Shown: positions 3,609-39,734 of the stretch, one piece after another
Layout: each line of letters starts with the position of its first letter
Position numbering within the stretch: position 1 is the first letter of the stretch
DNA from: Sphingomonas sp. EC-HK361
GTDB lineage: Bacteria > Pseudomonadota > Alphaproteobacteria > Sphingomonadales > Sphingomonadaceae
Reading direction: 5' to 3'
Length of the DNA: 64,000 bases
NCBI RefSeq assembly: GCF_902498785.1
Contig: NZ_LR701494.1
Coordinates: forward strand, 1,379,105 to 1,443,104
Made by a program: the position numbers and the translations under genes
The notes under the pieces: model-generated
What the model saw: the letters and a program-made list of their open reading frames with translations, nothing else
What the model was told of the DNA's origin: nothing
The model's database searches: none

Positions 3609-4238
3609 TCACGGCTCGGCTTGGGAAAGCAGATGCTCCTCCCGCGCCGCCATCCAGACTTCGCGGGCCGCGTCGAGATTCATGATCGCGATGCCGATGC
3701 CGACAATGATGTCCGGCCAGGGCGAATGAACTCTCAGTGTCACGAGGCCAGCGACAATGATCGCGACGTTTGCAAGGGCATCGTTCCGTGCTGACAGCCA
3801 GGCTGCCTTGGCAAGACTGCCGCCCCGCCGCCGATGGCGGGCGAGCAGGAAGGCCGCGATCAGGTTCACCAGCAGGGCGCCGAGGCCGGTGGCAGAAAGG
3901 GCTATGGCGTCGGGTGGAAGAGGAGCGCTGAGCTTGTGCCACAGCGTCCACAAGAAGGCGATTGCAGGCGCCAGCAGGATTGCCGAAAGCAACATGCCCA
4001 CGCGCGCGCGCCGCGCGGCACTCCATCCCAGGGCCGCCACGATAAGGAAATTGACGGCGGCGTCCTCGAAGAAGTCGGCGCTGTCTGCGAAGAGCGACAC
4101 CGATCCGATGCGGAGCGCGACCGCGAACTCGACGCCGAAATACGCCAGATTAAGCAGCGCGACGATGAGCACCGCCCGCCGAAGGGCGGACAGCAGAGAA
4201 CTGTTGAGAGGCTCGGTCGAAGATCGTTCCCCGCTCAT
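3609..4238 (-). CDS. Cation diffusion facilitator (CDF) family transporter
   Basis: A 209-residue inner-membrane protein of the cation efflux (CDF) type, which exchanges divalent cations for protons. About five to six membrane segments are visible, with the family's metal-site signatures SLFADSADFFED in the second helix and ARNDALANV in the fifth (a modified HxxxD). It lacks the C-terminal cytoplasmic domain of longer members. The ATG overlaps the stop of the upstream histidine phosphatase gene by four bases (ATGA), so it is translationally coupled and is the last gene of the fluoride cluster. Members of this short subfamily often stand in stress or metal-resistance operons; the transported ion cannot be read from the sequence. 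A longer frame upstream of this ATG is only the shadow of the phosphatase gene. Confidence 0.82.
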   Translation of the reverse strand: MSGERSSTEPLNSSLLSALRRAVLIVALLNLAYFGVEFAVALRIGSVSLFADSADFFEDAAVNFLIVAALGWSAARRARVGMLLSAILLAPAIAFLWTLWHKLSAPLPPDAIALSATGLGALLVNLIAAFLLARHRRRGGSLAKAAWLSARNDALANVAIIVAGLVTLRVHSPWPDIIVGIGIAIMNLDAAREVWMAAREEHLLSQAEP

Positions 4239-4861
4239 GCCGGTTCTTCCTCCGACAGACCGAGCAGGTGGACATGCTCGTTGATCCGCTGGACCGCTAC
4301 CTTGGTGTCGATGTCGATTTCGTTGATGCAGGCCGGATGTTGCTGCAGACGCCAATAGCCCGATAGCGGCAGGTCAAGCAGTTGCAGCAGCAGGGCACGA
4401 TTTACGCTGTCGTGGCCGACCGCCACCACCGTCTCGCCGGGATGGGCTTCCAGCATGAGCCGGAGGGAATCGGCGGTTCTCAGCGCAAGCGCCTGAAGCG
4501 TGTCACCGCCGGGTATGCGGGCCAGATGCGGCGCGCTGAACCACAGATCGTAGAGAGCCTGAGACGTCTGCTGGACCTCTTCATGCGTCTTCCAGCTCCA
4601 CTCACCATAATCGAAGTCGAGCAGCTCCGGGAGCGGCTGCGGGACCAGGCTGTAGCGATCGGCGATGGCCCGCGCTGTGTCCGCGGATCGACCCATCGGG
4701 CTGGTGAACACGGCATCGACCCTCCATTCGGCCGCGATCCGTTCTGCAGTAGCGGCCGCCTGTCGCCGGCCCAGCTCCGTCAAAGGGACTTCCTTGCGGC
4801 CCCGAAAGCGCTCGGGTTTGATGCCTTCGACATGACCGTGGCGCACGAGAATGAGTTTCAT
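4235..4861 (-). CDS. Histidine phosphatase family protein (phosphoglycerate mutase-like / GpmB-CobC type)
   Basis: A 208-residue phosphatase of the histidine-phosphatase clan. The catalytic RHG motif is at residues 7-9 (ILVRHGHVEG), followed by TSPMGRSADTA and the second catalytic histidine in VAVGHDSVNRALL, so the active site looks complete. Such proteins remove phosphate from small molecules (phosphoglycerate, alpha-ribazole phosphate, sugar phosphates); the substrate here is unknown. The ATG at 4861 is chosen because the RHG motif always lies at the N-terminus; 13 bp separate it from the enolase stop. Its place directly after phosphoglycerate mutase-like and enolase genes suggests a role in glycolytic intermediates or phosphate-ester damage under fluoride stress, which is inference. 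Confidence 0.82.
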   Translation of the reverse strand: MKLILVRHGHVEGIKPERFRGRKEVPLTELGRRQAAATAERIAAEWRVDAVFTSPMGRSADTARAIADRYSLVPQPLPELLDFDYGEWSWKTHEEVQQTSQALYDLWFSAPHLARIPGGDTLQALALRTADSLRLMLEAHPGETVVAVGHDSVNRALLLQLLDLPLSGYWRLQQHPACINEIDIDTKVAVQRINEHVHLLGLSEEEPA

Positions 4862-4874
4862 GGGTAGCCGCCTT

Positions 4875-6170
4875 TCATTTGCGGGTGAACGGATTGATGA
4901 AGACGGCTCGGCCGCCAAGCGCGCGTTCGATTTCGAGAAGCCGGTTGTATTTTGCGAGACGTTCGCCCCGGCAGGGTGCGCCGGACTTGATCTGCCCCGC
5001 GCCGATTGCCACCGCGAAATCGGCGATGAAGTCGTCATTGGTCTCGCCGGAGCGATGGGAGACCATCGTGCACCAACCAGCCTGGTGGCAGAGCTTCGCC
5101 GCGTCGACCGTCTCGGTGACAGTGCCGATCTGGTTGAGCTTGATGAGGACCGCGTTCATCGCCTTGCGGTCGATCGCTTGCCTGATGAACTTTGCGTTTG
5201 TGACGGTGATGTCGTCGCCCATGACCTGAATCCGGCCACCTTGCGCGGCCATCTGGTCGACGAAGCCCTGCCAGTCGTCGTCGGCGAAGCCGTCTTCGAT
5301 CGAGACGATCGGAAACTCGCCGATGAGCTTCTCGTAGAATGCGAGCAGGCCAGCACGATCGAAGGGCCCGCCGCTGGAGGGTCTGACATCGTAACAGTCG
5401 CCGGATCGGAATGATGAGGCGGCAGGGTCAAGCGCGATCGCGATGTCCTCTCCCGGCTGATAACCGGCTTTCTCGATCGCCTTGACGATGAGGCTCAGCG
5501 AAGCGTGAATTGCCTGCGCATCGAACCCCGGCGCGAAACCGCCCTCGTCGCCCACGCTTGTGCGCAGCTTCTCCTGATGGAGGATCTCGCGGAGCGCCGC
5601 GTAGGTTTCAGCGCCATAGCGCAGCGCCTCGGCGAAGCTCGGCGCGCCCGCCGGCACGATCATGAACTCCTGGAAGTCGATGCCGCTTTCGGCGTGCTTG
5701 CCGCCGTTCATGACGTTGAACGCCGGCACGGGCAGGATTTGCGCCGCCGAACCGCCGCCAAGCTGCTCGTAGAGCGGCACCCCCTGCACCGCCGACGCGG
5801 CGCGGGCGGCCGCCATCGAGACGCCAAGGATGGCATTCGCCCCGAGCCGGGCCTTGTCGGGCGTGCCATCGAGCGCGATCATGGCGCGATCGAGCGTGGC
5901 CTGATCGCAGACGTCATAGCCCTGCAGGGCGGCGGCAAGTGGCCCTTCGACGCGGCCTATGGCCTGCAAGACGCCTTTGCCGCCGAAACGGGCGCTGTCG
6001 CCGTCGCGCAGTTCCACAGCCTCGTTGGCGCCGGTCGAGGCACCGGACGGCACCGCTGCGGTCGCTTCGATGCCGCTTTCGAGAATAACAGTGACGGCGA
6101 GCGTCGGGTTGCCGCGCGAGTCGAGGATCTCGCGGCCGTGAAGACTGGCAATGCGGGTGCTGGGGATCAT
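4875..6170 (-). CDS. eno: Enolase (phosphopyruvate hydratase)
   Basis: Converts 2-phosphoglycerate to phosphoenolpyruvate in the cytoplasm. The 431 residues match the family's usual 425-435. All key residues are visible: the DSRGNPT start motif, the GASTG loop, the catalytic Glu in DEGGFAP, the catalytic Lys in LIKLNQIGT, metal ligands in ALDPAAS, SIEDGF and MGDDI, and SHRSGET. Start taken at the ATG at 6170, 11 bp after the preceding mutase-like gene. Fluoride together with phosphate is the classical inhibitor of enolase, and enolase genes are a known class among fluoride-riboswitch-associated genes, so this is probably an accessory copy that raises enzyme dose under fluoride, rather than the housekeeping gene. 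Confidence 0.95.
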   Translation of the reverse strand: MIPSTRIASLHGREILDSRGNPTLAVTVILESGIEATAAVPSGASTGANEAVELRDGDSARFGGKGVLQAIGRVEGPLAAALQGYDVCDQATLDRAMIALDGTPDKARLGANAILGVSMAAARAASAVQGVPLYEQLGGGSAAQILPVPAFNVMNGGKHAESGIDFQEFMIVPAGAPSFAEALRYGAETYAALREILHQEKLRTSVGDEGGFAPGFDAQAIHASLSLIVKAIEKAGYQPGEDIAIALDPAASSFRSGDCYDVRPSSGGPFDRAGLLAFYEKLIGEFPIVSIEDGFADDDWQGFVDQMAAQGGRIQVMGDDITVTNAKFIRQAIDRKAMNAVLIKLNQIGTVTETVDAAKLCHQAGWCTMVSHRSGETNDDFIADFAVAIGAGQIKSGAPCRGERLAKYNRLLEIERALGGRAVFINPFTRK

Positions 6171-6181
6171 GGCGGTTCCGA

Positions 6182-6805
6182 TCAGGCGAGGAGCGCGCGG
6201 CGGACGATCGCCGTCGTCTCGCCGATCGCATAGTGGATGGTAGCCCCGGTCGAGAGGTCGAAACTCTCGATCGCGGCGGCGTCGAGGCCGTCGAGCGCCA
6301 TGCACAGCGCTCGCAGCGTATTGCCTTGGGAGACGACAAGCGTGGTTCCGCCAGCCATCGCGGCGGGCAAGAGGACGTGGACATAAGCCGCAAGCACGCG
6401 CGCGGCGGTACCGCGCAGGCTCTCCCCTTCCGGCGGCGCCTCGGCGTAGGAACGCCGCCAGAGCCGTATCTGAGCGGCGCCGACCTCGGCTACGGCCTCA
6501 TCCTTGTTGCGGCCCGTCAGCGTGCCGTAATCGCGCTCGTTGAGCGCCGGCAGATGCGTCAAGGGCGTTTCGGTTGCTTCCAGCACTTCCTTGATGATCG
6601 CGACCGTCTCCGTCGCGCGAGACGCCGGCGAGCTGAAGATGCGCGAGGGCGCCAGCCTCGCCTCCCGAATCCGATGGGCGACCCGCGCTGCCTCGTCTCG
6701 GCCGATCGCTGTCAGCGGCGGATTGCTCCAGCCCGTGAAGACATTGGCCGCATTGGTCGCGCTCTCGCCATGACGCACGACGACGAGGCTGATGGGCGCC
6801 CCCAT
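6182..6805 (-). CDS. 2,3-bisphosphoglycerate-dependent phosphoglycerate mutase-like protein with an altered active site
   Basis: A 207-residue protein of the GpmA type, the enzyme before enolase in glycolysis. Visible: VVRHGESATN with the phospho-histidine, FTGWSNPPLT, LNERDYGTLTG. The short length fits the compact bacterial form. One key residue is changed: the second catalytic histidine, which in GpmA lies in AAHGNSLRAL, is glutamine here (VVSQGNTLRAL; codon CAA at about 6328-6330). The protein may therefore be weak, altered in reaction, or regulatory. The ATG overlaps the Usp stop (TGATG), giving tight translational coupling. A glycolytic pair with enolase next to fluoride exporters points to protection of lower glycolysis. 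Confidence 0.85.
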   Translation of the reverse strand: MGAPISLVVVRHGESATNAANVFTGWSNPPLTAIGRDEAARVAHRIREARLAPSRIFSSPASRATETVAIIKEVLEATETPLTHLPALNERDYGTLTGRNKDEAVAEVGAAQIRLWRRSYAEAPPEGESLRGTAARVLAAYVHVLLPAAMAGGTTLVVSQGNTLRALCMALDGLDAAAIESFDLSTGATIHYAIGETTAIVRRALLA

Positions 6806-7614
6806 CAGTGCGCCAGGAACAGCGGCAGAGCGGTGTTGCGCAGCATTTGCCGCGTGGTGCTGCCCAGGAGCCATTCGACGAGCTGGCTGTGCCGATAGGC
6901 ACCCGCCACCAGCATGTCGGCCCCGATCGCCTCTGCCTCCTTGACGATCTGCGCGCCCCGATCATGCCCTGAAGGCGCGACCACGCGCAATTGCGCGTCT
7001 ATGCCCATTTCCTGCAGCCTGTCGGCCAAGGTGAGGGCATGATCCTGTTCGGCGTCGATTCGGATCGCCGTCACCGTGTCGGCGGCGCGCAGCCACGGCA
7101 TCGCGCCCTGAATAGCATCGTCCGTGACCGGCGTGTCGCTCAGCGCCACGGCGATGTGCGCGAAGGCGGGCGGTCGGGGCGTCCAATCCGCCGGCACCAG
7201 CAAGAGCGGCTTGCCCGTCTCGCGGATCGCGGCGTGCTGCGCGTCGCCGCTGTCGAGATCTTGGCTCTGCACCAGCACAAGGAGGTCGGCGTCGCCGGCT
7301 GCTTCGACGATCGTCGCCTCCTCGGCTCCTGCCGGCGCTTTCCATTCGACGCGGGGCGTGTCGTCGGCGGTGCCGGCGTTCCATGCAACGAATGCTGCCT
7401 GCGCGGCCATCGCCTTGTCGCTGGCGGTGCCCTCGGCCGTCTCCCGGAGGCGCTGGATCTGGACTTCCTCGGTCGAGGAGACGAGCTGGTCGGGATCGAC
7501 GACGACATGCAGCGCCTCGATCCGGGCGAACTTGTCGACCTTCGCCGCAACAACGGCGGCGTCGAGGCAGGAGCGAGCGGTGGCGGCTTCGGTGACGATG
7601 GCGAGAATCTTCAT
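6805..7614 (-). CDS. Universal stress protein with two tandem Usp domains
   Basis: A 269-residue cytoplasmic protein made of two UspA-like domains (about 1-140 and 145-269). The second domain keeps the nucleotide-loop type motif near its end, GAYRHSQLVEWLLGSTTRQ, and finishes with LPLFLAH. It is a clear paralogue of the tandem Usp gene at 11667-12488 in the same cluster: both share IEALHVVVDP near residue 35 and the same C-terminus. Usp proteins help cells survive growth arrest and energy stress by mechanisms still unclear; Usp genes are among those reported under fluoride riboswitches. It lies 5 bp after crcB and overlaps the start of the mutase-like gene, so it belongs to the same transcript. 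Confidence 0.88.
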   Translation of the reverse strand: MKILAIVTEAATARSCLDAAVVAAKVDKFARIEALHVVVDPDQLVSSTEEVQIQRLRETAEGTASDKAMAAQAAFVAWNAGTADDTPRVEWKAPAGAEEATIVEAAGDADLLVLVQSQDLDSGDAQHAAIRETGKPLLLVPADWTPRPPAFAHIAVALSDTPVTDDAIQGAMPWLRAADTVTAIRIDAEQDHALTLADRLQEMGIDAQLRVVAPSGHDRGAQIVKEAEAIGADMLVAGAYRHSQLVEWLLGSTTRQMLRNTALPLFLAH

Positions 7615-7619
7615 GGGGC

Positions 7620-8018
7620 TTAGCTCCGAAATAGCCGCGCCAGAGCTTCGGGCGCGGAGAAGCCTATCCAGACCGCGAGCACGCCGGCGGTGACGGACAG
7701 GAGGATGTTGGCGAGGGCTCGGCCCAGCTCGCCGGTCTGGATGAGGGCGAGCGTTTGCAGGCTGAACGAGGAAAAGGTGGTATAGCCGCCGCAGAGCCCC
7801 ACCAGCATGAAGGCGCGGATTTCCGGCGGCACCGGCCAGCGGCCGCCCGTTTCGGTGAGGGCGGCGAACAGGCCGATCACGAACGAGCCCGTTATGTTGA
7901 TGAAGATCGTTCCCCACGGCATCGCCTCGCCGAAGCGTGCCGTGAAGACGAGGTTGATCCAGTAGCGGCCGAGCGTGCCGATCAGACCGCCGACGGCGAT
8001 CCATGCGTAGGTCAGCAT
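7620..8018 (-). CDS. crcB: CrcB/Fluc fluoride ion channel
   Basis: Exports fluoride passively across the inner membrane as a dual-topology dimer. The 132 residues contain four hydrophobic segments and the family's hallmarks: GGLIGTLGRYW at the N-terminus, the pore asparagine region FINITGSFVIG, and GLCGGYTTFSSFSLQT, which holds the Phe and Ser/Thr residues lining the two fluoride pathways. It overlaps the 3' end of the upstream fatty-acid-synthase-like gene by 7 bp. No fluoride riboswitch lies directly in front of it; it is instead inside the long transcript led by the antiporter riboswitch, although a palindrome at 8086-8104 could mark an internal promoter. This gene is the strongest single functional anchor for reading the cluster as fluoride resistance. 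Confidence 0.95.
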   Translation of the reverse strand: MLTYAWIAVGGLIGTLGRYWINLVFTARFGEAMPWGTIFINITGSFVIGLFAALTETGGRWPVPPEIRAFMLVGLCGGYTTFSSFSLQTLALIQTGELGRALANILLSVTAGVLAVWIGFSAPEALARLFRS

Positions 8019-9301
8019 TGCGCCGCCTCCGTTTCAGGAGCGGTCGCCTTGCGACGGGCGTGCGCCCGCTTCGGCTGCGGTCGGGGTCTTGCACCATGCA
8101 AGCCTTGCTCGGCTTCGGTGATGTAGGTGCGCGTGATCGGCAGGCTGGCGACGTCGCGGGCAATCTGGGCCTGAAACACCATCAGCCCATTGAAGCGGAA
8201 GCCCATCTCGCAGGACGCCAGATAGAACTCCCACATGCGATAAAAACGGGCATCGTAGATCGCCTCGATCGCAGGGCGGTTGGCGGCGGCGCGCAGGCGC
8301 CAGTGGCGCAGTGTCTCGGCATAATGGAGCCGCAGCACTTCGAGATCGGTCAACCACAGCCCGGTTTCCTCGAGCGCCGCCAAGGCTTCGCTAACGGCCG
8401 GAATATAACCGCCAGGGAAGATGTGCTCCTGCGTCCAGCGGTCGAAACCCGGCCCCCGATCCTTGCGGCCGATCGAATGGACGAGCGCCACGCCATCATC
8501 GGTCAGGAGCCGGTCGATCGCGCCGAAATAGTCCCGATAATGCTTGGCACCGACATGCTCGAACATGCCGACCGACACAATGCGATCGAACCGGCCCGCC
8601 ACCTGGCGATAGTCAGCGAGCGCGAACCGCACGCGGTCGGAAACGCCAGCGGCCGAGGCGCGGTCTCGTGCGACCCGAAGCTGTTCGGTCGAGAGGGTGA
8701 TTCCCGTGACATAAACGTCGGCGCTGCGCGCGAGCATCAGCGCCAGGCCTCCCCATCCGCAGCCGATGTCGAGAATATGCGCGCCAGGCTGCAGATCCAG
8801 CTTCGCCGCGATGTGCGCTTTCTTCGCGGCCTGCGCCGCTTCGAGCGACATGCCCGGATCGGTGAAGTAGGCGCAGCTATATTGGAGATCTTCGTCAAGG
8901 AAGAGGCGGTAGAAGGCTTCCGACAGGTCATAATGGTGCGCGACGTTGCGGCGCGATCGCCCGAGGGAATTGGTGCGGGCGCGCAGCGCGGCCGTCAGCT
9001 CACGGGCGCGGCCCAGGATACCCGCGCCGGGACGGCGTTTCAAATTGCGCCCGATCAGCTCCATGAGGCTGTCGAGCGTGCCGCGTTCGATAACCAGCGA
9101 GCCCGCCATATAGCATTGCCCGAGCTGATATTCGGGGTCGAGCGCGAGCAGATTGGCAGCCCAGCGATCCTTCAGCCGGATCGCGACATCGAGCTGCGGC
9201 ATGTCGATCGGCACCGCGCCGATGGTGAAGGAGGGCTCGGAACCGATCGCAACGGACAGCCGGCCGACCTCGATCATGCGGGCGAGCAGCTCACGCAGCA
9301 T
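8012..9301 (-). CDS. Cyclopropane-fatty-acyl-phospholipid synthase family methyltransferase
   Basis: A 429-residue SAM-dependent enzyme of the Cfa family, which adds a methylene bridge to double bonds of membrane phospholipids. The SAM site is seen as ILDIGCGWGGLALMLA, followed by GITLSTEQ, FDRIVSVGMFEHVG and the bicarbonate/substrate-pocket region YIPAVSEA; the catalytic core spans about 130-395, with a basic C-terminal tail. The start is chosen at the second ATG because AGGGAGG lies five bases before it; the first ATG, 3 bp upstream, is too close. It overlaps the Usp gene before it and crcB after it. Why it sits in a fluoride cluster is not established; lowering membrane permeability to HF would be one idea. 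Confidence 0.88.
   Translation of the reverse strand: MLRELLARMIEVGRLSVAIGSEPSFTIGAVPIDMPQLDVAIRLKDRWAANLLALDPEYQLGQCYMAGSLVIERGTLDSLMELIGRNLKRRPGAGILGRARELTAALRARTNSLGRSRRNVAHHYDLSEAFYRLFLDEDLQYSCAYFTDPGMSLEAAQAAKKAHIAAKLDLQPGAHILDIGCGWGGLALMLARSADVYVTGITLSTEQLRVARDRASAAGVSDRVRFALADYRQVAGRFDRIVSVGMFEHVGAKHYRDYFGAIDRLLTDDGVALVHSIGRKDRGPGFDRWTQEHIFPGGYIPAVSEALAALEETGLWLTDLEVLRLHYAETLRHWRLRAAANRPAIEAIYDARFYRMWEFYLASCEMGFRFNGLMVFQAQIARDVASLPITRTYITEAEQGLHGARPRPQPKRAHARRKATAPETEAAQC
8086..8104. repeat. Palindrome CTTGCA-N3-TGCAAG upstream of crcB
   Basis: Copy of a repeated palindrome, here inside the 3' end of the fatty-acid-synthase-like gene and 70 bp before the crcB start. Six paired bases around a 3-nt spacer, with a slightly degenerate outer arm compared with the copies at 12640 and 15513. 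Confidence 0.5.
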
Positions 9302-9731
9302 CATGTCCTCCCTCGCGGACGATGAGCACCGAGCAATCCACCTTGTGCGTCATGCGGTCCGAGCGGCGGCCGAACAGGTGCTCCCACAGATCGGCATGTT
9401 CGGTCGCGCCGATCACCAGCAGATCGGCCTTGGCCTCGCGTGTGAACGCGACGATGTGCCCGACCGGATGGCCGGTGAAGACGTGGGTCTTCAGCGTGAC
9501 ACCCGATCGCGCCGCGATCCGCTCGGCGAGCGCCTTGTGCCTGCCGATATGGCGGCGTTCCTCCGTTTCATGCGCGGTTACGTCCGCGATCATGCCGGTT
9601 CGAGGCGCAATGTCTTCGACGAACAGCACGTCGAGGCCGGTGTCCGCGACCGCTGCCAGCTCAATCGCGGTGCGTAGCGCGGTCAGGGAGTTCTCGGAGC
9701 CATCATTGGCGTGAACGATATGGTGGAACAT
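9291..9731 (-). CDS. Universal stress protein, single domain
   Basis: A 146-residue UspA-fold protein: N-terminal strand FHHIVHANDGSENS, core ADLLVIGATEHADLWEHLF (the ATP-type loop region) and the final strand DCSVLIVREG. It is different from the two tandem-domain Usp proteins of the cluster and belongs to the ordinary single-domain group. It begins 25 bp after the antiporter gene and overlaps the following methyltransferase gene, so it is expressed with them. Its role in fluoride stress is inferred only from position. Confidence 0.88.
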   Translation of the reverse strand: MFHHIVHANDGSENSLTALRTAIELAAVADTGLDVLFVEDIAPRTGMIADVTAHETEERRHIGRHKALAERIAARSGVTLKTHVFTGHPVGHIVAFTREAKADLLVIGATEHADLWEHLFGRRSDRMTHKVDCSVLIVREGGHDAA

Positions 9732-9756
9732 CGAACTTACCTCCTTGCCGGCGACG

Positions 9757-10980
9757 TCATGAGCGGCCTGCTACGGCGGCCGCGACCTGCGGCGCCGCTT
9801 CGGGCTTTTGCGCGTCGGGAAGCGGCTCTTCAGGCGGGATCAGGTGTCGCGGCAGGTAGAAGGCATTGGCGATCAATGTCGGGACGATCGCCGAGCCGAT
9901 CACGGTCGCGACGAGGATCGAATATTGGCTCTGGTCGATGACGTGGTGCGAGAGGCCGAACAGCGCTGAAATCGTTCCGAAGGTAAGGCCCGTCGACATA
10001 AGCAGGGTCGTGTAGGCCGCTTCCTTGCGCGGAGACGCGAACCAGCGCGTCAACGGATAGACGCCGACCACCTTCGAGGCCATCTTGCCGATCAAGAGCA
10101 CGAGAAAGCCAATCGGCGCAGCCCATAGCGCCGACAGTGAGACGAACGAGCCGGCGCGAATGAAGTAGAAGGGCGTCAGCAGGCCGAAGGTCAGCGTGCG
10201 CAGCCGCCGAATGAGCGCGTGATCCTTGCCTACGGTGCCAGCTAGCACCATGCCGACCAGATAGGCCGGCAGCACCGCTTCGCTGTCCGCCCAGGTCGCA
10301 AGCGCGCCGAGGCCGAACAGCGCGAGCAACAGAAACTTGGCTTCCAGCTCGGAGGGGCGATCGCCATAGAGTTTGAAGAAGCGGGGCGTCAGCCACGGCA
10401 GGATCACGAACACGACGACAGCGATCCCAGCGAAAATCGCCGTCTTGACGGTGAATGGCGCGAAGATCACGCCCAGCGCCAGCACCGTCACCAGGTCGTT
10501 GATGAAGCAGGCGGCAAGCAGCGTCTTGCCATAATCGGTGCGATTGAGCCCGAACTCGAGCATGACTGCATAGACGACCGCGACCGAAGTTGTGGACATG
10601 GCGACGCCGGCGAGCAGGGCGGCCTTCATCGTCCAGCCCAGCCCGAGGACGGCGAGTAGCGTGCAGCCGACGAACGGCAGCGTGAACCCCGCCAGACCGA
10701 CTGCGGTCGCCTCCTTCCATTTGGTGCGGAAAACGCTCGGGTCCAGCTCGGCGCCGGCGAGGAAGGTGAGGACGATCGCGCCCGCCCCCGATAGGAATGT
10801 CACCCAGCTTTCCTGGGTGCCGAGCACTGCCGAGCCCACGGCCGCGCCGATAATGAGCTGGGCGATGGTGCCCACCACGATTTCCGACAGCGCCGTAGCG
10901 ATCTTGAACCAGATCGACATAAGGGTCGCGACCAGCGCCAGCCCCAGCCAAAGCGCGGCAATCGCCCACACATGGGTCAT
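9757..10980 (-). CDS. Cation:proton antiporter (Na+/H+ exchanger domain)
   Basis: An inner-membrane monovalent cation/proton antiporter, 407 residues with about 12 hydrophobic segments filling the family's transport domain (PF00999 type). The ion-binding region is AACFINDLVTVLALG, carrying an Asn-Asp pair in the middle of a membrane segment; a short charged C-terminal tail replaces the regulatory domains of Kef systems. It is the first gene after a fluoride riboswitch (11089-11136), and antiporters are a known class of riboswitch-controlled genes: they are thought to restore internal pH after HF entry and dissociation. The start ATG lies 108 bp downstream of the aptamer. Seven to nine further genes follow without clear breaks. 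Confidence 0.9.
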   Translation of the reverse strand: MTHVWAIAALWLGLALVATLMSIWFKIATALSEIVVGTIAQLIIGAAVGSAVLGTQESWVTFLSGAGAIVLTFLAGAELDPSVFRTKWKEATAVGLAGFTLPFVGCTLLAVLGLGWTMKAALLAGVAMSTTSVAVVYAVMLEFGLNRTDYGKTLLAACFINDLVTVLALGVIFAPFTVKTAIFAGIAVVVFVILPWLTPRFFKLYGDRPSELEAKFLLLALFGLGALATWADSEAVLPAYLVGMVLAGTVGKDHALIRRLRTLTFGLLTPFYFIRAGSFVSLSALWAAPIGFLVLLIGKMASKVVGVYPLTRWFASPRKEAAYTTLLMSTGLTFGTISALFGLSHHVIDQSQYSILVATVIGSAIVPTLIANAFYLPRHLIPPEEPLPDAQKPEAAPQVAAAVAGRS

Positions 10981-11088
10981 TCTTCACCGTCTCCGCACCC
11001 GCTCGGGCTATGCCCGTTCCGGCGTGTGTCAGGATCGGGCCGTTACCGACGGCCCGCGCGGCGAAGACACACTCCCACCGCGTTTGAC

Positions 11089-11136
11089 GCAGTAGGGGTC
11101 ATCAGCCTGTCGGCGGTTATGGGGGACTCCATCCCC
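11089..11136 (-). ncRNA. Fluoride (crcB-motif) riboswitch before the antiporter gene
   Basis: Read on the minus strand the segment gives GGGGATGGAGTCCCCC, then AACCGCC, a short loop, and GGCTGATGACCCCTACTG. These are the conserved pieces of the fluoride aptamer (GGnGATGG..., a loop strand, then ...CTGATGAnnCCTAC). The helix between GGAGTC and GACCCC carries one A-C mismatch. Between the aptamer and the antiporter start lies a G+C-rich hairpin (GGGCCGT / ACGGCCC, about 11035-11054) that may be part of the expression platform. No U-run follows it, so control may be by translation or Rho rather than by an intrinsic terminator. Confidence 0.9.
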
Positions 11137-11223
11137 ATCCAGCGATGTCGAAGGCAGGGCAAGAGCCCTTCCCTTCCGGATAACCTTAAAGTGAATTGAT
11201 CGTTCCGCTCAAGGCTAATCCAG

Positions 11224-11328
11224 TCACCCCTTGGATTTTGTCACACTGACGAGGACGCCAACGATTGCGAGGATGACTGCCAGCACCAGAATCAGGTCGA
11301 AAGGGGCTACGGGCATATCGACCTTCAT
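11224..11328 (-). CDS. 34-residue single-span membrane peptide
   Basis: A very small gene whose ATG overlaps the stop codon of the preceding 111-residue gene by four bases (ATGA). The product starts MKVDMPVAPF, has one hydrophobic segment of about 20 residues (LILVLAVILAIVGVLVSV) and ends in TKSKG, so it is probably a bitopic inner-membrane peptide. Translational coupling and the clean membrane profile argue that it is real. No family is recognised. It closes the transcript that begins at the second riboswitch; the next aptamer lies 88 bp downstream. It may act with the transporters of the cluster, which is speculation. Confidence 0.6.
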   Translation of the reverse strand: MKVDMPVAPFDLILVLAVILAIVGVLVSVTKSKG

Positions 11329-11660
11329 GGGATACTTGGCGGGTCGCTTGCCGGAAAGCTCTCGTCAGATTGTTCATCGACCTCATCCCAGCCTCGTCGG
11401 GGGTCGCGGTCGCGGATACTGGCTGGACCGGCGGTGCGGGTCTGGTCGATATTGGCGGGATCGGTTTCGTCGGGCTGCAGGGCGGCACCCTCTGCCTTCC
11501 CTACGGCCCGCTCGCCCACCTCGGCCGCTCTGGCGGTATATTCTTCGGCGAGCTTCAGGTGCGACGCTTTAGCCTCGGCCGTATCGGCCTCTGCGGCCAA
11601 GCGCTGCTCCTCCTGTGCTCGGCGCACGAAATAGGCATGATCTTCGGGCATCTTCTCCAT
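11325..11660 (-). CDS. Hypothetical charged protein, 111 residues
   Basis: A small soluble protein. Residues 8-55 form an Ala/Glu-rich helix (VRRAQEEQRLAAEADTAEAK), the rest is acidic, proline-containing and probably disordered, ending DEQSDESFPASDPPSIP. The start could be the ATG at 11660 or the one three codons later. It begins 6 bp after the tandem Usp gene and overlaps the small membrane peptide gene after it, so all three form one unit behind the second fluoride riboswitch. The tail SDESFPASDPPS resembles tails of small stress proteins in sphingomonads, as far as I can recall; no function can be assigned. Confidence 0.65.
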   Translation of the reverse strand: MEKMPEDHAYFVRRAQEEQRLAAEADTAEAKASHLKLAEEYTARAAEVGERAVGKAEGAALQPDETDPANIDQTRTAGPASIRDRDPRRGWDEVDEQSDESFPASDPPSIP

Positions 11661-11666
11661 CCTTCG

Positions 11667-12488
11667 TCAGTGAGCGAGAAACAGGGGCAGATCGAAGCGC
11701 GCGAGCACATGGCGGGTGGTTCCGCCAAGCAGCCATTCGATGAACTGATTGTGCCGATAGGCGCCCATCACCAGCAGATCGGCACCGAGCTGGTGCGCTT
11801 CGGTAACGAGCTGGTCGCCGAGCGTCTCGCTATCGCGCGGCACTTGGCGGACGTGGAAAGCTATGCCTTCGAGTCCGAGCAGCTCTTCGGCCGAACGGGC
11901 AATCTCGCGGCTTTCGGCGACCAGCAGCAGCGTCACCTCACTCGCCACGCGCAACCACGGCAAGGCGCCTTCGAGCGACCGCAGACAAGCCGATGTGTCG
12001 TTCCAGGCGATGACGATATGCTCAGCGAAAGTATCACCAGGTTGAAGACGCCATTTCGCGGGCACCAGAAAGAAGGGATGCTTGACGCGGTTGAAGGCGG
12101 CGTGGAGCGCGTCGCCGCCGTCCATGTTGGTCGGGCGCGCCAGGACCAGCACATCGAAGATACGCGCTTCCTGCTCGACATTTTCCTCCTCGGCGCCGAT
12201 GCGTTCCTTCCAGCGCAGCGGAATGTCCGCGTCCGGATGCTCGGCGATCCAGGCTTCATAGGTCGCGTGTGTCGCCGCCTCGCGCTCCTGGGCGGTGCCT
12301 TCATAGCGGACACGCAATTGCTGGAAGGCCAGCTCCTCGCTCGCGCAGACAATATGCTCGGGATCGACGACGACATGCAGCGCCTCGATCGTGGCATCCT
12401 TCAGCACATGGGCTGCGGCCTCGGCCGCGTCCAGACAGGCCGGCGTCGTCGCGGCCTCGGCGATCACCGCCAACAGCTTAGTGGTCAT
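11667..12488 (-). CDS. Universal stress protein with two tandem Usp domains, riboswitch-controlled
   Basis: A 273-residue protein with two Usp domains, paralogous to the product of 6805-7614 (shared IEALHVVVDP near residue 36 and a C-terminus GAYRHNQFIEWLLGGTTRH...LPLFLAH). The ATG at 12488 is preceded by GGGAGAGGG. Unlike the paralogue it has its own fluoride riboswitch 60 bp upstream and a sigma-70-like promoter, so it starts its own transcript with the two small genes after it. The presence of three Usp genes in one 11-kb cluster suggests that growth arrest under fluoride is part of the response; that link is inference. Confidence 0.88.
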   Translation of the reverse strand: MTTKLLAVIAEAATTPACLDAAEAAAHVLKDATIEALHVVVDPEHIVCASEELAFQQLRVRYEGTAQEREAATHATYEAWIAEHPDADIPLRWKERIGAEEENVEQEARIFDVLVLARPTNMDGGDALHAAFNRVKHPFFLVPAKWRLQPGDTFAEHIVIAWNDTSACLRSLEGALPWLRVASEVTLLLVAESREIARSAEELLGLEGIAFHVRQVPRDSETLGDQLVTEAHQLGADLLVMGAYRHNQFIEWLLGGTTRHVLARFDLPLFLAH

Positions 12489-12547
12489 GACCCTCTCCCT
12501 TCTGCGGGAGTGCGGCAAGACCTACCGACGCCCGCGAAATGGCGTTC

Positions 12548-12596
12548 TGGTAGGAGTTATCAGCCTTTGCGGCGGTTGATGGGGAACTCCATCCCC
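12548..12596 (-). ncRNA. Fluoride riboswitch before the tandem Usp gene
   Basis: On the minus strand: GGGGATGGAGTTCCCC, AACCGCC, then AAGGCTGATAACTCCTACC. The closing helix GGAGTT / AACTCC pairs perfectly, and GGGG / CCCC forms the second helix, as in the known fluoride aptamer. Directly downstream a hairpin ACGCC / GGCGT is followed by GGTAGG, which can pair with the CCTACC at the aptamer's 3' end. This gives two exclusive folds and so a plausible switch. The Usp ATG is 60 bases downstream. Confidence 0.92.
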
Positions 12597-12602
12597 GAAC
12601 CC

Positions 12603-12632
12603 TATATAGATATTCGCCTCGTCGATCGGCAA
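12603..12632 (-). promoter_or_regulatory. Sigma-70-like promoter of the riboswitch-Usp transcript
   Basis: Minus-strand -35 like TTGCCG (12627-12632) and -10 TATATA (12603-12608) with an 18-bp spacer. Transcription would begin almost exactly at the 5' edge of the aptamer. A perfect 8-bp palindrome (12640-12658) lies just upstream of the -35 box. Confidence 0.55.
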
Positions 12633-12639
12633 GGGCGGA

Positions 12640-12658
12640 GGCTTGCACCGTGCAAGCC
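12640..12658. repeat. Palindrome GGCTTGCA-N3-TGCAAGCC before the Usp promoter
   Basis: Perfect 8-bp inverted repeat with spacer CCG. It lies between the stop of the ABC ATPase gene and the -35 box of the Usp promoter. It could be an operator or a terminator-like hairpin, but no T-run follows in either direction. Confidence 0.6.
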
Positions 12659-12664
12659 CTCGGC

Positions 12665-13456
12665 TCAGCGATGGTCGCCAACGCCAAGCGGCGTGCCGGC
12701 GCGCGAGCGCTTCCCCAGCAGGTATTCGCGCACCCAGGGATGATCGGACTTTTCCAGCTCGCGGACCGGCGCGATGGCTACGATCTTCTTGTCCGCAAGC
12801 GCCGCTACCCGATCGGTGATCGTGTAGAGCGTGTCGATGTCGTGCGTCACCAGCACGACCGTCAGACCGAGACTATGCGCCAGATCGCGGATCAGACGGT
12901 CGATCTGATCGGCCATCACCGGGTCGAGGCCCGATGTCGGCTCGTCAAGCAGCAACAGTTCGGGATCAAGCGCAATCGCGCGAGCTACGCCGGCCCGCTT
13001 CTGCATCCCGCCCGACAGCTCATTGGGAAATTTGTCGATCGAGTCCGCTGGGAGACCCGACAGGATCGCCTTGAGCTGGGCGATTTCACAAAGCATTTGG
13101 TCCGGAAGCCGGGCGTGTTCGCGCAGCGGGACTTCGATGTTTTCCCGCACCGTTAGCGTTGAAAACAGGGCATTGGCCTGAAACAGCACGCCCCACCGGC
13201 GTTTGACGGCTTCGATTTCCGCCTCCGGCCCCTCATGAATGTCGGTCCCGAACACCTGGATCGAGCCGCTAGCGGGCGGAAGCAAGCCGATGATAGATTT
13301 CAGCAGCACGGACTTTCCCGAACCTGAGCCGCCGACGAGGCCGAGGATCTCGCCGCGTTTAACGGTCAGGTCGAGGCCCTTATGGATGACCTGCTCGCCG
13401 ATTTCGGTCCTGAGCCCCTTCACCTCGAGCGGCGGTGCCCCATCAGACGGCGGCAT
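12665..13456 (-). CDS. ABC transporter ATP-binding protein, MlaF-like
   Basis: A 263-residue cytoplasmic ATPase. All motifs are intact: Walker [10 protein letters not shown]-loop, signature LSGGMQKR, Walker [13 protein letters not shown] and switch VTHD. The sequence is closest in pattern to the MlaF/Ttg2A group that powers phospholipid or solvent-related transport. The ATG at 13456 overlaps the end of the CLC-DUF190 gene by 14 bp, so it is co-translated with it. No permease (MlaE) or substrate-binding gene is nearby, which is unusual: the ATPase may serve permeases elsewhere or have been recruited into the fluoride cluster for another task. Confidence 0.88.
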
Positions 13457-15290
13457 CCGGCTCGGCCGACAGCTCTTCGGGCGTCGCATCCTCATGATCG
13501 ACACCCCTGGGGCCGATGCTCCAATGCTCGAGATGCTTGTAAACGATCACCTTGCTCGCCAGCAGATCGCCATGTGCCGCGCAGAAGGCTTCGAGCTTGT
13601 CGCGATGGTCGATCAGCTCGACGCACATGGTCAGATGCGGATCGCTGATCTCGGCGCCATGCTCGCGCACCGGGCCGTGGTTTGAGAAGCCGTAATGGGT
13701 GTGATGCGCGACGGCGTTCATGACGCCTTCCGCTTTCGCCTGCGCGACCAGGGCGCGGTAGAGCGGCTTGGAGGCCCAAAGCGTCTTCACGGAGCCCTTG
13801 GCGGCCTTGTCGCTGGGCTTGAGGTAGATACGGATCATGCCGATCTCGCTGGCATTGACCTGATGTGTGTGGGGCATGGGATCGCCTTCGCTGGTGATGG
13901 ATGGGGAGAAGGGGAAAAGATCGGTGAGTGAATGCTGCGGGCGGATCGCGCGGGCATCCCGCAGCGTGGTATCGGGCGGGAGCAGGCCGCCGCCCGTCTT
14001 GGGGACGGCGATCCGCTGCGACAGATAGATGCCGCTGTGACCCGAGCAGAGATAGGCCAGGAAGCACGCGATCGCGATCGGCACGATGTGGGTCGCCCCG
14101 AACAGCTCGACGCCCATGATCGTGCAGGCGAGCGGCGTGTTGGCCGCCCCCGCGAACACCGCCACGAAGCCGAGCCCCGCGAACAGATCGACAGGCGCGC
14201 CCAGGAGCCCGCCGAGCGCGTTGCCGAGTGCGGCCCCGATGAAGAACAAGGGCGTGACCTCGCCGCCCTTGAAGCCGGCGCTTAGGGTCACGACGGTGAA
14301 GAGGATCTTGAGCAGCCAGCTCCAATGGTCGACGGGCGGCCCGAAGAAGCCGGCGATGGTGGGAGCGTTGGGATCGGCGGACCAAACTCCTAGCCCGAGA
14401 TAATCACGGGTGCCGAGCAGATAGACCAAGGCGATGACCATCAACCCGCCGACCACTGGCCGAACCGGACCATAGGGAATGAGGCGCTTGAACAGGCCGC
14501 CCAGGCTGTGATTGGCCTCCGCGAAGACGAGGCCGGCAAGCCCGAACACCACGCCGGCGATCGCTGCCTTGCCCAGCAACAGCGGTTCCGCGGTCAGCGC
14601 ACCACCGACGCCGGCAACATAGTCGATGTGATAGGCGCCGTGATGGATGCCCCACATATGGCAGGTCCAGTCACCGACGACACCGGCGATCAGGCATGGC
14701 ACCAGCGCCGAATATTCGACGCGACCGATCGCGAGCACTTCCAGCGCGAACACGGCGCCGGCGAGCGGCGTGCCGAACACCGCCCCGAAGCCGGCGGCAA
14801 TACCGGCCATCAGCAGAACGCGGACGCCGGATGGATCGAGCCCGACCAGACGCGCGACCGCACTCGCGAGGCTTCCCCCGAGCTGCACGGCTGTCCCCTC
14901 GCGCCCTGCGGAGCCGCCGAACAGGTGCGTCGCCACGGTTCCGATGAAGATCAGTGGCGCCATGCGCAGCGGCACGCCGCCACCGGGCTCGTGGATTTGC
15001 TCGACGATCAGGTTGTTGCCGCCTTCGACGCTCCTGCCCGTCCACTGGTAGAGCAGCCCGATCGCGAAGCCGCCCGCCGGCAGCAGGAACAGCAGCCAGG
15101 GATGCGCGAAGCGCGTCCGTGTCGCGACGTCGAGACTCCACAGGAAGGCAGCGCAGAGACTTCCGACCGCCAGCGCCATCGGCACGAGAATCAATCCCCA
15201 GCGAAGCACCGAGATGGCGTGGCCGTGGCGCGTGCGGACGAACGCAGCGACGTTTAGGGTATGAAAGAGATTCCGAAACGTAGCGCGCAC
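13443..15290 (-). CDS. CLC-type anion transporter fused to a DUF190 domain (probable fluoride/proton antiporter)
   Basis: A 615-residue protein. Residues about 20-450 are a CLC anion transporter with some 12-16 membrane segments; the gating-glutamate motif appears as AGREGTAVQ, and the usual GSGIP anion-site motif is replaced by a GGNN-type sequence ([11 protein letters not shown]), as expected for the fluoride-selective CLC-F branch. From Met472 onward comes a DUF190 domain ([10 protein letters not shown]...[13 protein letters not shown]), usually a separate small protein found near crcB. The start is GTG at 15290 with AAGGAGG five bases before it. An internal ATG at 13877 preceded by GAAGGCGA might also give free DUF190. 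A fluoride riboswitch lies 27 bases upstream. Confidence 0.9.
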
Positions 15291-15317
15291 AATTCCTCCT
15301 TGTTGCCTGACGGCGAC

Positions 15318-15381
15318 AGGTAGGAATCATCAGCCTTGCGGGCGGTTCGGCTCGGACGAGCCCGGCAGGAATCCATTGCCG
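15318..15381 (-). ncRNA. Fluoride riboswitch before the CLC-DUF190 gene
   Basis: On the minus strand: GGCAATGGATTCCTGCC, an extra hairpin GGCTCG/CGAGCC, GAACCGCC, then AAGGCTGATGATTCCTACC. The order and core bases agree with the fluoride aptamer; this copy is longer because of the hairpin in the variable loop. Downstream, the Shine-Dalgarno stretch AAGGAGGAAT can pair with ATTCCT of the aptamer's 3' strand, which suggests that fluoride binding frees the ribosome-binding site. Confidence 0.9.
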
Positions 15382-15396
15382 TGATCGGCTATGCCT

Positions 15397-15531: not shown

Positions 15532-15631
15532 AATTGAGACAGCGGGGGCTCGACCCCGTCCCGGAAAATGCCTCCAGCGGGAATGGGAGAAATCTGTCAA
15601 AATCGAAGCTGATTTGAGTTGGAGATTTTGC

Positions 15632-15800
15632 ATGAAGAAGTCGAAGTTCACTGGCGAGCAAATTGCGTTTGCGCTGCGTCAGGCCGAGGTCGGCACGCAG
15701 GTGCCGGAGTGTGCCGGAAGATGGGCCTCTCGGAGGCGACGTATTACCGCTGGAAGCAGTTATACGGCGGCTTGGGCCTTCAGAGCTGCGCAAGATGCAC
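15632..15800 (+). pseudogene. IS3-family transposase orfA fragment, frameshifted
   Basis: The frame from ATG 15632 reads MKKSKFTGEQIAFALRQAEV, the typical N-terminus of OrfA in the IS3 family (IS407-like group). After about 25 codons the reading shifts by one frame to continue CRKMGLSEATYYRWKQLYGG, and a further shift yields GPSELRKM. At least two small deletions have therefore hit the gene and the rest (orfB, ends) is missing. It is a relic marking an old insertion at the upstream border of the fluoride cluster. Confidence 0.8.
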
Positions 15801-15840
15801 CTTCCACATCCCTGGGGTTCTCGACACCGGCCGAATTCGC

Positions 15841-15872
15841 TTCATGGGCCGGGGTTAACCCCGGCCCATGAA
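15841..15872. repeat. 32-bp perfect palindrome without spacer
   Basis: The arms TTCATGGGCCGGGGTT and AACCCCGGCCCATGAA are exact reverse complements with no loop. It lies immediately after the IS3 fragment and before the LysR pseudogene. No T-run follows, so it is not a usual terminator. It may be a junction produced by a rearrangement (a short inverted duplication). Confidence 0.75.
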
Positions 15873-15938
15873 AAGCCGGATCTCTCGTTCTGGCCGGTGG
15901 CAATTCCGGGGTAGGGTCACTCGATTTCGCTGTGGCCA

Positions 15939-16181
15939 TTACGGCGCAGCTGCGACAGCCACATCGATAATCTCCACACCCGAACCTTTTCCGAAAGCCT
16001 TGCCGACTTGGGCAGCGCAGCGCCGCGAGGGATGGATGCAACGGACGGCTACCGATCTCTGTTCAAGGTCCCTGATCTCATGGCTGAGAGGCGGCTGCAC
16101 ATTTCCAAGCTTCTATGCTGTCCGGGCAAAATGCCTTTCCTCCAAAACGGTCAGGAAAGAACAGATATGCCACAACTCCAC
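15939..16181 (-). pseudogene. LysR-family regulator remnant
   Basis: From a GTG at 16181 the minus strand reads ELWHICSFLTVLEERHFART, the first helix of a LysR DNA-binding domain. It is broken by TAG at 16113-16115 and continues in the same frame as KLGNVQPPLSHEIRDLEQR, the recognition helix. The rest is scrambled by deletions (a piece QVGKAFGKGSGVEIIDVA is still LysR-like) and stops at 15939. It would have been divergent from the hydrolase gene at 16272, so that gene may have lost its regulator. Confidence 0.75.
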
Positions 16182-16271
16182 ATCATGCTCTAAGGCTATT
16201 GGGATCACACCCATCATGTATTGGACATATGATGACCACAGGCCCACCGGCAGATGCAGGAGGTCGTCAAT

Positions 16272-17048
16272 ATGGCACGTACCGTAGTTCACGCGCAAAG
16301 TTTCGAGCGACCGTCGCCCTCCTCTTCCCGATCGACGCATCCGGCATCATTCGAGCCTATCGTCTTTCTGCCCGGCCTGTTGTGCGACCAGTCGCTCTGG
16401 CGCCATCAGGTCGGCGCGCTCGCTGACGACGTCGCGCCGATGATCGCTGACCTCACCCTGGACGACAATATCGGTGACATGGCGCGACGGACGCTTGCAG
16501 CAGCCCCTGCCCGCTTCTCCCTCGTCGGTCTCTCAATGGGCGGCTATGTAGCGCTCGATATCATGCGCAGAGCGCCTCACCGGGTTCGTCGCCTAGCCCT
16601 TTTCAATTCAAGCGCGCGCGCCGACACACCGGAGCGGATTGCCCAGCGCCACGCCGGTATCGAATCCCTTCAGCGGGGCAAGTTTCTGGGCGTCACCCGC
16701 CGCTTGCTGAACAGTCTAGTGCATCCAAGTCATGTCGAAGGGACCGTGGCGGACGAAATGCGCGCAATGGCCCAACGCGTTGGCGGAGACGCTTTTCTTC
16801 GGCAGCAACAGGCAATCATGAGCCGCCCCGACTCGACCGGTCTCCTCAGCACCATCGCGGTGCCCACGATGATCGTCGTTGGAGACGGCGACCGGATCAC
16901 GCCGCCCGCACACGCGGAAGAAATCCACGATCGCGTTGTGGGGTCAGTATTGCATATCATTCGAGACTGCGGCCATATGGCAGCTCTCGAGCATCCCGGA
17001 GAGACGACAACCCTTCTCAGGGAATGGTTGGCAACGGAGGCCGATTGA
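16272..17048 (+). CDS. Alpha/beta hydrolase
   Basis: A 258-residue alpha/beta-hydrolase-fold enzyme. The nucleophile elbow is VGLSMGGYVAL (serine about residue 93), the oxyanion region FLPGLLCDQSLW, the acid lies in VVGDGDRITPP and the catalytic histidine in CGHMAALEHP. The pattern is that of small esterases and enol-lactonases. The start is placed at the ATG with AGGAGG eight bases upstream; a frame-matched ATG 18 bp earlier lies on the ribosome-binding site itself. The remains of a divergent LysR gene lie upstream. Substrate unknown; no partner genes follow. Confidence 0.85.
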   Translation: MARTVVHAQSFERPSPSSSRSTHPASFEPIVFLPGLLCDQSLWRHQVGALADDVAPMIADLTLDDNIGDMARRTLAAAPARFSLVGLSMGGYVALDIMRRAPHRVRRLALFNSSARADTPERIAQRHAGIESLQRGKFLGVTRRLLNSLVHPSHVEGTVADEMRAMAQRVGGDAFLRQQQAIMSRPDSTGLLSTIAVPTMIVVGDGDRITPPAHAEEIHDRVVGSVLHIIRDCGHMAALEHPGETTTLLREWLATEAD

Positions 17049-20494: not shown

Positions 20495-20646
20495 TCAGCG
20501 CTCGAGGTGAATGGCCGGAAAACATGCACAAACCTTGATCTGTGCAGGGCGGTGACAAAACCAGCCACTGGAACGCCAGCGAAGTGCTGAGCGTGGCGGA
20601 GTAAAAACCGGCCAGTGGTAAGGCTGCCCTTTTGAGGGCGGCCGGG

Positions 20647-22158: not shown

Positions 22159-22994
22159 GCCGGGCGCCCGATGACAACCTGCCCACCGGCACCACCGCTG
22201 GTGCGCCACAGGTGCTGCTGGCCCACCACCTCAAGCAACTCAAACTGCCGACCGTTTTGCGCGAATATGAGAAAGTAGCCCGGGAGTGCGCGCGTGATGG
22301 TGTCGATCATCCCCGCTATCTACTGCGCCTGATCGAACTGGAACTGATCGACCGTGAGCGGCGCACTGTCGAACGCCGGATCCGTGCTGCCCGGTTCCCG
22401 GCCGTCAAAAGCTTCGATACCTTCGACTTCACCGCCATCCCCAGCCTCAACAAGATGCTGACGCTGGATCTGGCGCGCTGCGAATATATCCTGCGGCGCG
22501 AGAATATCATTGCGCTGGGCAATAGCGGGACGGGCAAAACCCATGTGGCGCTCGCCCTGGGGCTGGCCGCCTGCCAGAAGGGCTTCACCGTGACCTTCAC
22601 CACCGCCGCGGCGCTGGTGAACCAGTTACTGGAAGCCCGCGACGAGAAGCGGCTGCTCAAGATGCAGCGCGAGTTGGCTGCAGTGAAGCTGCTGATCATC
22701 GACGAACTGGGTTACGTCCCGCTCTCGCCCACCGGCGCGGAGCTGTTGTTCGAGACCTTCTCCCAGCGCTACGAACGCGGCTCCACCATCGTTACCTCCA
22801 ACCTGCCGTTTGAGGACTGGACGCAGGTGCTTGGGTCCGAGCGCCTGACCGGCGCATTGCTGGATCGTTTGACCCACCACGTCAGCATCCTGACCATGAA
22901 TGGTGACAGTTACCGCCTAAAGCAGTCAGCCAGTCGCCGTCGCGCCACTGCCAGCGGGGCGGAGCAAAACCAGGCCACCGTCGACGAAAACTGA
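22155..22994 (+). CDS. istB: IS21 helper ATPase IstB
   Basis: A 279-residue AAA+ ATPase that helps IstA choose and capture targets. Walker A GNSGTGKTH and Walker B LLIIDELGYVPLS are intact, as is the downstream sensor region TSNLPFEDW. Length and order are typical, and the frame is undamaged, so the element is potentially active. Confidence 0.93.
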   Translation: MSRAPDDNLPTGTTAGAPQVLLAHHLKQLKLPTVLREYEKVARECARDGVDHPRYLLRLIELELIDRERRTVERRIRAARFPAVKSFDTFDFTAIPSLNKMLTLDLARCEYILRRENIIALGNSGTGKTHVALALGLAACQKGFTVTFTTAAALVNQLLEARDEKRLLKMQRELAAVKLLIIDELGYVPLSPTGAELLFETFSQRYERGSTIVTSNLPFEDWTQVLGSERLTGALLDRLTHHVSILTMNGDSYRLKQSASRRRATASGAEQNQATVDEN

Positions 22995-38117: not shown

Positions 38118-38125
38118 GCGCTTTC

Positions 38126-38140
38126 ATACCTTATGGGTAT
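38126..38140. promoter_or_regulatory. ATAC-N7-GTAT operator in the catB promoter region
   Basis: ATACCTTATGGGTAT matches the CatM/BenM binding form and lies 9 bp before the LysR start and about 77 bp before catB, the expected place for control of both. AATGATCTTT follows 14 bp after it, as in the other copy at 23348. Confidence 0.7.
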
Positions 38141-38216
38141 CACATCAAGACCCGAATGATCTTTGCCACTCCCTATAGCTTACCGTACTTATCACCGCAG
38201 ACAAGCTAATTTGAGG

Positions 38217-39676: not shown

Positions 39677-39734
39677 CCATTTGGTCCCGGCAGGCGGACC
39701 CAAGAAACTCTTCCAAGTCGAGAGGATATTTGAA

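Follow-up and report, generated by a model that had tools for sequence, protein, structure and literature searches.

A close described counterpart of the locus analyzed here is the operon of Enterobacter cloacae FRM. In the accessible part of its report (PMC5533749), this operon comprises one riboswitch and six genes, is said to be horizontally acquired, and responds to fluoride with an increase of about 100-fold for ppaC, uspA and eno and of about 10-fold for gpmA, crcB and orf5249; knockouts and complementation tie it to fluoride resistance. A fluoride review, in its accessible portion (PMC11139923), gives antiporters, enolase and divalent cation transporters as partners and includes cell membrane structure among the listed responses, the word 'lipid' being absent from its main text. 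We analyzed a stretch of 64,000 nucleotides from Sphingomonas sp. EC-HK361 (NZ_LR701494.1, positions 1,379,105 to 1,443,104; hereafter the window), in which Rfam, Pfam, NCBIfam and solved structures delineate thirteen closely packed minus-strand genes in three units, each headed by a fluoride riboswitch aptamer. We consider it highly probable that this locus is a compact island for fluoride resistance, made up of three units that are each gated by a riboswitch.

The three aptamers, all on the minus strand, were the sole matches at gathering level to any Rfam family in the window, and all exceeded the RF01734 gathering cut-off of 34 bits (Table 1), in agreement with the three fluoride aptamers named in the initial annotation of this DNA. 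That annotation had also described at least twelve tightly spaced genes on one strand between 3609 and 15381; thirteen were found, and the locus is real but extends to 15389. Unit 1 consists of a gene for a CLC-F/DUF190 fusion and an overlapping gene for an MlaF-like ATPase, unit 2 of a Usp-domain gene (Usp-a) and a small open reading frame (ORF), and unit 3 of nine genes, from the antiporter to the CDF protein, with spacings of -14 to +25 nt. Each unit is presumably co-transcribed. Gene families were assigned using Pfam, NCBIfam and the closest solved structures (PDB). The CLC protein was placed in the CLC-F class because it is closer to a solved CLC-F, the fluoride/proton antiporter 6d0j (best PDB match, 204.5 bits), than to chloride CLCs (best match, 36.7 bits). 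The CrcB protein scored above the cut-offs of two curated models (NF010802, 150.1 vs 140; TIGR00494, 100.8 vs 80.45). Of the proteins listed initially, the three Usp proteins all match Pfam Usp, and the CLC-F-like transporter and DUF190 are both present, as one fused protein. The single phosphoglycerate mutase-like protein became two histidine phosphatases, one dPGM-like and the other CobC/phosphatase-like, and the ABC ATPase, which does match Pfam ABC_tran, is better described as MlaF-like (best NCBIfam model NF008809).

Table 1 Features of the fluoride locus, in order of transcription (window coordinates).
Feature	Position	Strand	Evidence
Fluoride riboswitch aptamer 1 (CLC-F leader)	15314..15389	-	RF01734 43.1 bits, E 1.3e-8
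CLC-F type fluoride/proton antiporter fused to DUF190	13443..15290	-	Pfam Voltage_CLC + DUF190
Orphan MlaF-like ABC ATPase	12665..13456	-	Pfam ABC_tran; start overlaps CLC-F stop
Fluoride riboswitch aptamer 2	12544..12605	-	RF01734 61.1 bits, E 1.7e-14
Usp-a, Usp-domain protein, 273 amino acids	11667..12488	-	Pfam Usp 8.2e-8, C-terminal part
Small ORF, 111 amino acids from first ATG	11325..11660	-	no Pfam match
Fluoride riboswitch aptamer 3	11086..11145	-	RF01734 53.3 bits, E 5.8e-12; followed by competing hairpin and GUGUGUC/GACACAC stem
Cation:proton antiporter (CPA2-like)	9757..10980	-	Pfam Na_H_Exchanger; TIGR00932 114 bits, below cut-off 238
Usp-b, single-domain Usp	9291..9731	-	Pfam Usp 5.7e-23
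Cyclopropane fatty acid (CFA) synthase family protein	8012..9304	-	Pfam CMAS 1.8e-89; NF053839 513.9 bits, cut-off 600
CrcB/Fluc fluoride channel	7620..8018	-	NF010802, TIGR00494 over cut-off; PDB Fluc entries
Usp-c, Usp-domain protein, 269 amino acids	6805..7614	-	Pfam Usp 9e-11, C-terminal part
dPGM-like phosphoglycerate mutase	6182..6805	-	His_Phos_1; TIGR01258 142 bits, cut-off 81.7; PDB 1fzt
Fluoride-cluster enolase	4875..6170	-	Pfam Enolase_N + Enolase_C
Second histidine phosphatase, CobC/phosphatase-like	4235..4861	-	His_Phos_1; best NCBIfam TIGR03162, below cut-off; PDB 1h2e phosphatase
Short CDF-type cation efflux protein	3609..4238	-	Pfam Cation_efflux 3.2e-13

The window shares with the Enterobacter operon, as far as the accessible text of that report goes, a set of usp, eno, pgm and crcB genes that lie close together behind an aptamer (uspA, eno, gpmA and crcB in Enterobacter). 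It differs in its thirteen genes and three aptamers and in the presence of genes for CLC-F, the antiporter, CFA, the MlaF-like ATPase and CDF; conversely, the Enterobacter operon has ppaC, and no pyrophosphatase gene was found among the thirteen of the window. Relatives were also found in sphingomonads. The same gene order, which the initial annotation had suggested seeking in other sphingomonad genomes, was present in Sphingobium estronivorans AXB contig 7 (G1034:C66), where seven unit-3 genes are kept in order and strand downstream of two aptamers, with protein identities of 66% (Usp), 71% (CFA), 83% (CrcB), 57% (Usp), 59% (phosphoglycerate mutase), 69% (enolase) and 66% (phosphatase). They are followed by a weak CDF match of 34% identity (E 3e-16), located in an ORF without any Pfam hit at 0.01, and no antiporter match was found in the stretch concerned (L289). 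This conservation argues that the arrangement of the locus is not due to chance. As in the window, aptamers precede CLC-F and a Usp gene on that contig, which differs in that 14 aptamers above the cut-off lie between its positions 103,633 and 158,304, together with a MutS-like pair, a P-type ATPase, a dehydratase, NUDIX, BacA and proton-antiporter-like subunits. Genes for a dihydroxy-acid/6-phosphogluconate dehydratase, DUF983 and dynamin-like proteins were also seen near its aptamers (L037, L313, L289, L314). A plasmid of Sphingomonas sp. LK11 (NZ_CP013917.1) likewise bears CLC and DUF190, MlaF-like, Usp, dPGM, enolase, histidine phosphatase and CrcB genes on one strand, with one aptamer in the stretch fetched; unlike the window, it has two CLC/DUF190 pairs and EamA, alkaline-phosphatase-like and BacA-type genes, and CFA, antiporter and CDF genes are not annotated in the stretch seen.

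The predicted structures of the leaders support regulation. In the minimum free energy fold of the aptamer 1 leader (-48.0 kcal/mol), the Shine-Dalgarno (SD) sequence and the start of the CLC-F gene are paired with the aptamer's 3' strand. This pairing was examined in 49 leaders from other loci (48 before CLC genes and one before crcB), with counts resting on the 33 in which a script found a usable start and the remaining 16 uncounted; it had a predicted probability P above 0.5 in 24/33. In a hand reading of those 24 related rows, the variable aptamer base and its SD partner mostly varied in step (T-A in 18/18 cases, C-G in 4/6). The leaders of aptamers 2 and 3 follow a different plan, in which the pairing partner of the aptamer's 3' strand is a hairpin directly behind the aptamer. 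Both of these plans recur in S. estronivorans, where a leader like that of aptamer 2 also precedes a Usp gene. The second stem behind aptamer 3 (GUGUGUC/GACACAC) is common to two S. estronivorans leaders and, in one of the three sequences of this small set, is altered on both strands to GUGCGUC/GACGCAC. Across all collected loci, an exact 8-base stem was found in 17 leaders, one of them of the aptamer 3 type, and a GC stem with a U run was present in 2/4 aptamer-antiporter leaders from other genomes (L150, L166). Three observations weigh against this reading of the leaders. SD pairing at P above 0.5, combined with at most 2/40 shuffled strands scoring as high, was seen in just 14/33 leaders; the SD of aptamer 1 was still predicted to be 0.7-0.9 paired, largely with coding sequence, when the pseudoknot strands were barred, so that release in the docked state may be partial; and the hairpins of aptamers 2 and 3 contain no U run, which makes any off-mechanism for them tentative. 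Induction by fluoride in this strain and the direction in which the switches act are inferred.

To place the locus among other genomes, we used overlapping samples from the family (298 genomes), the class (385) and the phylum (398), scanned with strict filters and each including G001, a near-twin of the window's genome. The locus is identical in G001, window positions 1-20540 match at 99.995%, and enolase and BenA do not differ between G001 and the window; being nearly the same strain, G001 serves as a stand-in for the window's genome and not as independent support. Another G001 locus (L222, G001:C16) has a weak fourth aptamer match of 25.9 bits, below the Rfam cut-off, which is missed by R1, our own aptamer model built from aptamer alignment A2. 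Aptamers over cut-off occurred in 21 (family), 19 (class) and 57 (phylum) genomes, and only G001 had three on one contig; in G350 three aptamers were spread over as many contigs, and in each of G840 and G820 two lay within 12 kb on one contig. A tblastn survey of same-strand genes downstream of 96 aptamers from these samples, all over cut-off, with G001 left out and short contigs included, gave CrcB 57 times, CLC 23, Usp 7, antiporter 6, enolase 4, CDF 2, phosphoglycerate mutase 2, CFA 1 and MlaF (at least 45% identity) 0. These counts are lower bounds, since the survey misses divergent genes, such as a CrcB gene of locus L218 that Pfam finds. The window thus stands at the far end of the surveyed sample for size. 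Searches baited with CLC led to richer loci: four or more aptamers over cut-off lay on one contig in 6/14 genomes (14, 7, 5, 5, 5 and 4), and no rate can be drawn from this figure because the 14 were hand-picked from 80 CLC-baited loci, mostly for looking rich. S. estronivorans contig 7 is the extreme, with its 14 aptamers in 54.7 kb. Two further loci are recorded here as observations: a Burkholderia cenocepacia plasmid (L284) carries two enolase genes, an inorganic diphosphatase, DUF190 and MutS, and R1 matches it three times at 31-33 bits, and a record titled Arthrobacter (L091), probably a mislabelled or mixed assembly, contains a CLC 78-79% identical to that of the window.

The term 'unusual' in the initial annotation accordingly holds for the size of the set in the genome samples, but the accessible text of PMC5533749 already describes crcB, eno, gpmA and uspA together in one riboswitch operon, and larger islands exist. 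Most of the components have thus been described before; what this locus adds is its size, its division into three units with a switch each, the genes for the MlaF-like and CFA proteins, and two protein lineages. A literature search that fell short of most subscription journals found nothing joining fluoride, riboswitch, Sphingomonas and antiporter, or fluoride riboswitch and cyclopropane fatty acid, and nothing on an orphan MlaF-like lineage behind fluoride aptamers, a separate fluoride-linked enolase lineage, multi-aptamer fluoride islands, or S. estronivorans and fluoride.

The first of these lineages is that of the enolase. At least two enolases were present in each of 16/16 genomes searched, three in one of them, all chosen for having a cluster-type enolase or a fluoride locus. 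In a tree of 67 enolases, from which three near-copies had been removed and whose root was not fixed, one branch parted 23 fluoride-locus enolases from 41 others with support of 100/98; three rows were unlabelled, one being the S. estronivorans cluster copy. When PDB entries 4yws and 1iyx, which we take to be enolases from other phyla, were added and 20 of the 41 others left out, the split persisted (95/91, 94% of bootstraps), and both entries grouped with the non-cluster side. At the level of protein sequence, the tree thus shows a separate enolase lineage, found mostly with fluoride genes. Two loci carrying the cluster-type enolase (L282 from Croceicoccus, and L290 from G734) have no aptamer match or fluoride exporter in the stretch fetched, and they count against an exclusive tie. 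The window's enolase has both Pfam domains; nine of ten patterns that we take to be the catalytic motifs are present in all cluster and other enolases (23/23 and 41/41), and the tenth, IK.NQ, occurs in 22/23 cluster and 9/41 other enolases. Cluster position 253 is Ser in 16/16 window-type rows, a group that includes the three unlabelled rows and one row from outside the class, and Glu in 41/41 others. A fluoride-proof catalytic change was sought and not found among the tested motifs; only softer differences, such as that at position 253, appeared. With these motifs unchanged, either extra dosage or a subtle change is possible.

The ATPase of unit 1 is homologous to MlaF of the Mla phospholipid transport system, but has no called mla partner gene beside it. 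Its best curated model, NF008809, gave 184 bits against a cut-off of 441, the sphingomonad housekeeping MlaF not having been scored for comparison. The four genomes searched (G001, G1034, G1032 and G1028) have one MlaE each, always beside another MlaF; in G001 this pair lies on C13 and the cluster copy on C34. A branch with support of 100/99 parts five MlaF-like proteins of the cluster type, including one identical pair, from 13 others, one cluster row (L298) being long-branched, and by its place in this tree the cluster lineage is distinct from housekeeping MlaF. High-identity MlaF matches on two plasmids (L310, L311) were set aside, as they adjoin MlaE-type permease and MlaD genes and not fluoride genes. 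The CFA protein scored below its curated model and far above the Pfam CMAS cut-off (300 vs 27); the scores indicate membership of the CMAS family rather than an exact reaction. A close relative of the cluster CFA in Rhizobium plasmids was also set aside, one such region (L309) having a CFA gene with neither fluoride genes nor an aptamer match.

Whether the MlaF-like and CFA genes belong to the fluoride response bears on a competing explanation, namely that the locus is a fluoride operon of the published type with stress genes gathered by chance, in which these two are hitchhikers with no fluoride role. The aptamer survey, where exporters dominate, CFA occurs once and MlaF never, is in line with this, as are the shuffled gene content among relatives and the IS21 element 5 kb from the locus. 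Against it, two other genomes (L037, L047) have the MlaF-like gene as the first one after an aptamer, with the aptamer directly preceding it, the MlaF-like proteins are a lineage distinct from the housekeeping ones, CFA family genes lie behind aptamers in three loci (directly in L043, where a hand reading finds an SD-type plan before the CFA gene; after CrcB and DUF190 in L218; and in L289), and gene order is conserved in S. estronivorans. We regard the hitchhiking explanation as possible but rather improbable; owing to the aptamer adjacency elsewhere and the MlaF-like lineage, the two genes likely have a part in fluoride defence.

It is also conceivable that the island mainly serves internal fluoride, set free when fluorinated aromatics are broken down by way of the benzoate dioxygenase encoded 22 kb away. 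Fluorobenzoate can lose its fluoride through the action of aromatic dioxygenases, and window positions 37191-45775 hold a benM/catM-type LysR regulator, catA, benABCD and a pcaJ-type transferase, the genes of a benzoate/catechol route. However, catA exceeds the cut-off for an ordinary catechol 1,2-dioxygenase and is far below that for a chlorocatechol one, an IS21 element separates the two sets of genes, none of the collected loci gave a benA, catA or benC match at 1e-30, and a literature search for such a link found only loosely related material. The link was weakly tested and not supported, and we think it very unlikely. The IS21 family transposase and its helper ATPase occupy positions 20632-22994. 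Broken plus-strand frames at 15560-16300, just upstream of aptamer 1, look to us like the start of an IS3-type transposase, and positions 23958-28556 encode AaeB/AaeA-like efflux proteins together with an outer membrane protein of the NodT type.

For the riboswitch-gated island, the following mechanism is proposed. Toxic cytoplasmic fluoride, with Mg2+, would dock the pseudoknot of each aptamer. In unit 1, docking would pull the 3' strand of the aptamer off the CLC-F SD sequence and free the ribosome site; in units 2 and 3 it would compete with or displace the hairpin just behind the aptamer. The CLC-F and Fluc proteins then made would export fluoride, the proton antiporter would repair pH, and the spare enolase and phosphoglycerate mutase would bypass the fluoride-blocked lower glycolysis. 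Usp stress proteins and the CDF metal transporter would be made as well, and the MlaF-like ATPase and CFA synthase would probably alter the envelope, reducing entry of hydrogen fluoride (HF) or repairing damage. Of the stress programme envisaged in the initial annotation, fluoride control of the genes for export, pH repair and glycolysis finds good support in the three aptamers, the conserved leaders and the gene families; growth arrest through the Usp proteins and membrane change through the CFA and MlaF-like proteins are putative roles, as is that of the CDF protein in fluoride defence.

More broadly, and tentatively, fluoride islands of Alphaproteobacteria may combine an RNA-switched envelope arm, in which a fluoride-only orphan MlaF-like ATPase would take the place of the housekeeping MlaF within the only MlaE complex and, jointly with CFA synthase, render membranes less open to HF, with a dedicated enolase lineage as metabolic arm and up to 14 riboswitch copies in 55 kb. 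Fluoride toxicity is named as a key challenge for the microbial breakdown of fluorinated pollutants in the accessible portion of the review (PMC11139923), so that an island conferring tolerance as one existing unit could be of use in that setting. The locus presents fluoride defence as an assembled riboswitch-gated island rather than a single exporter, with testable parts in the orphan MlaF-like ATPase, the CFA synthase and an enolase lineage that lies mostly beside fluoride genes.

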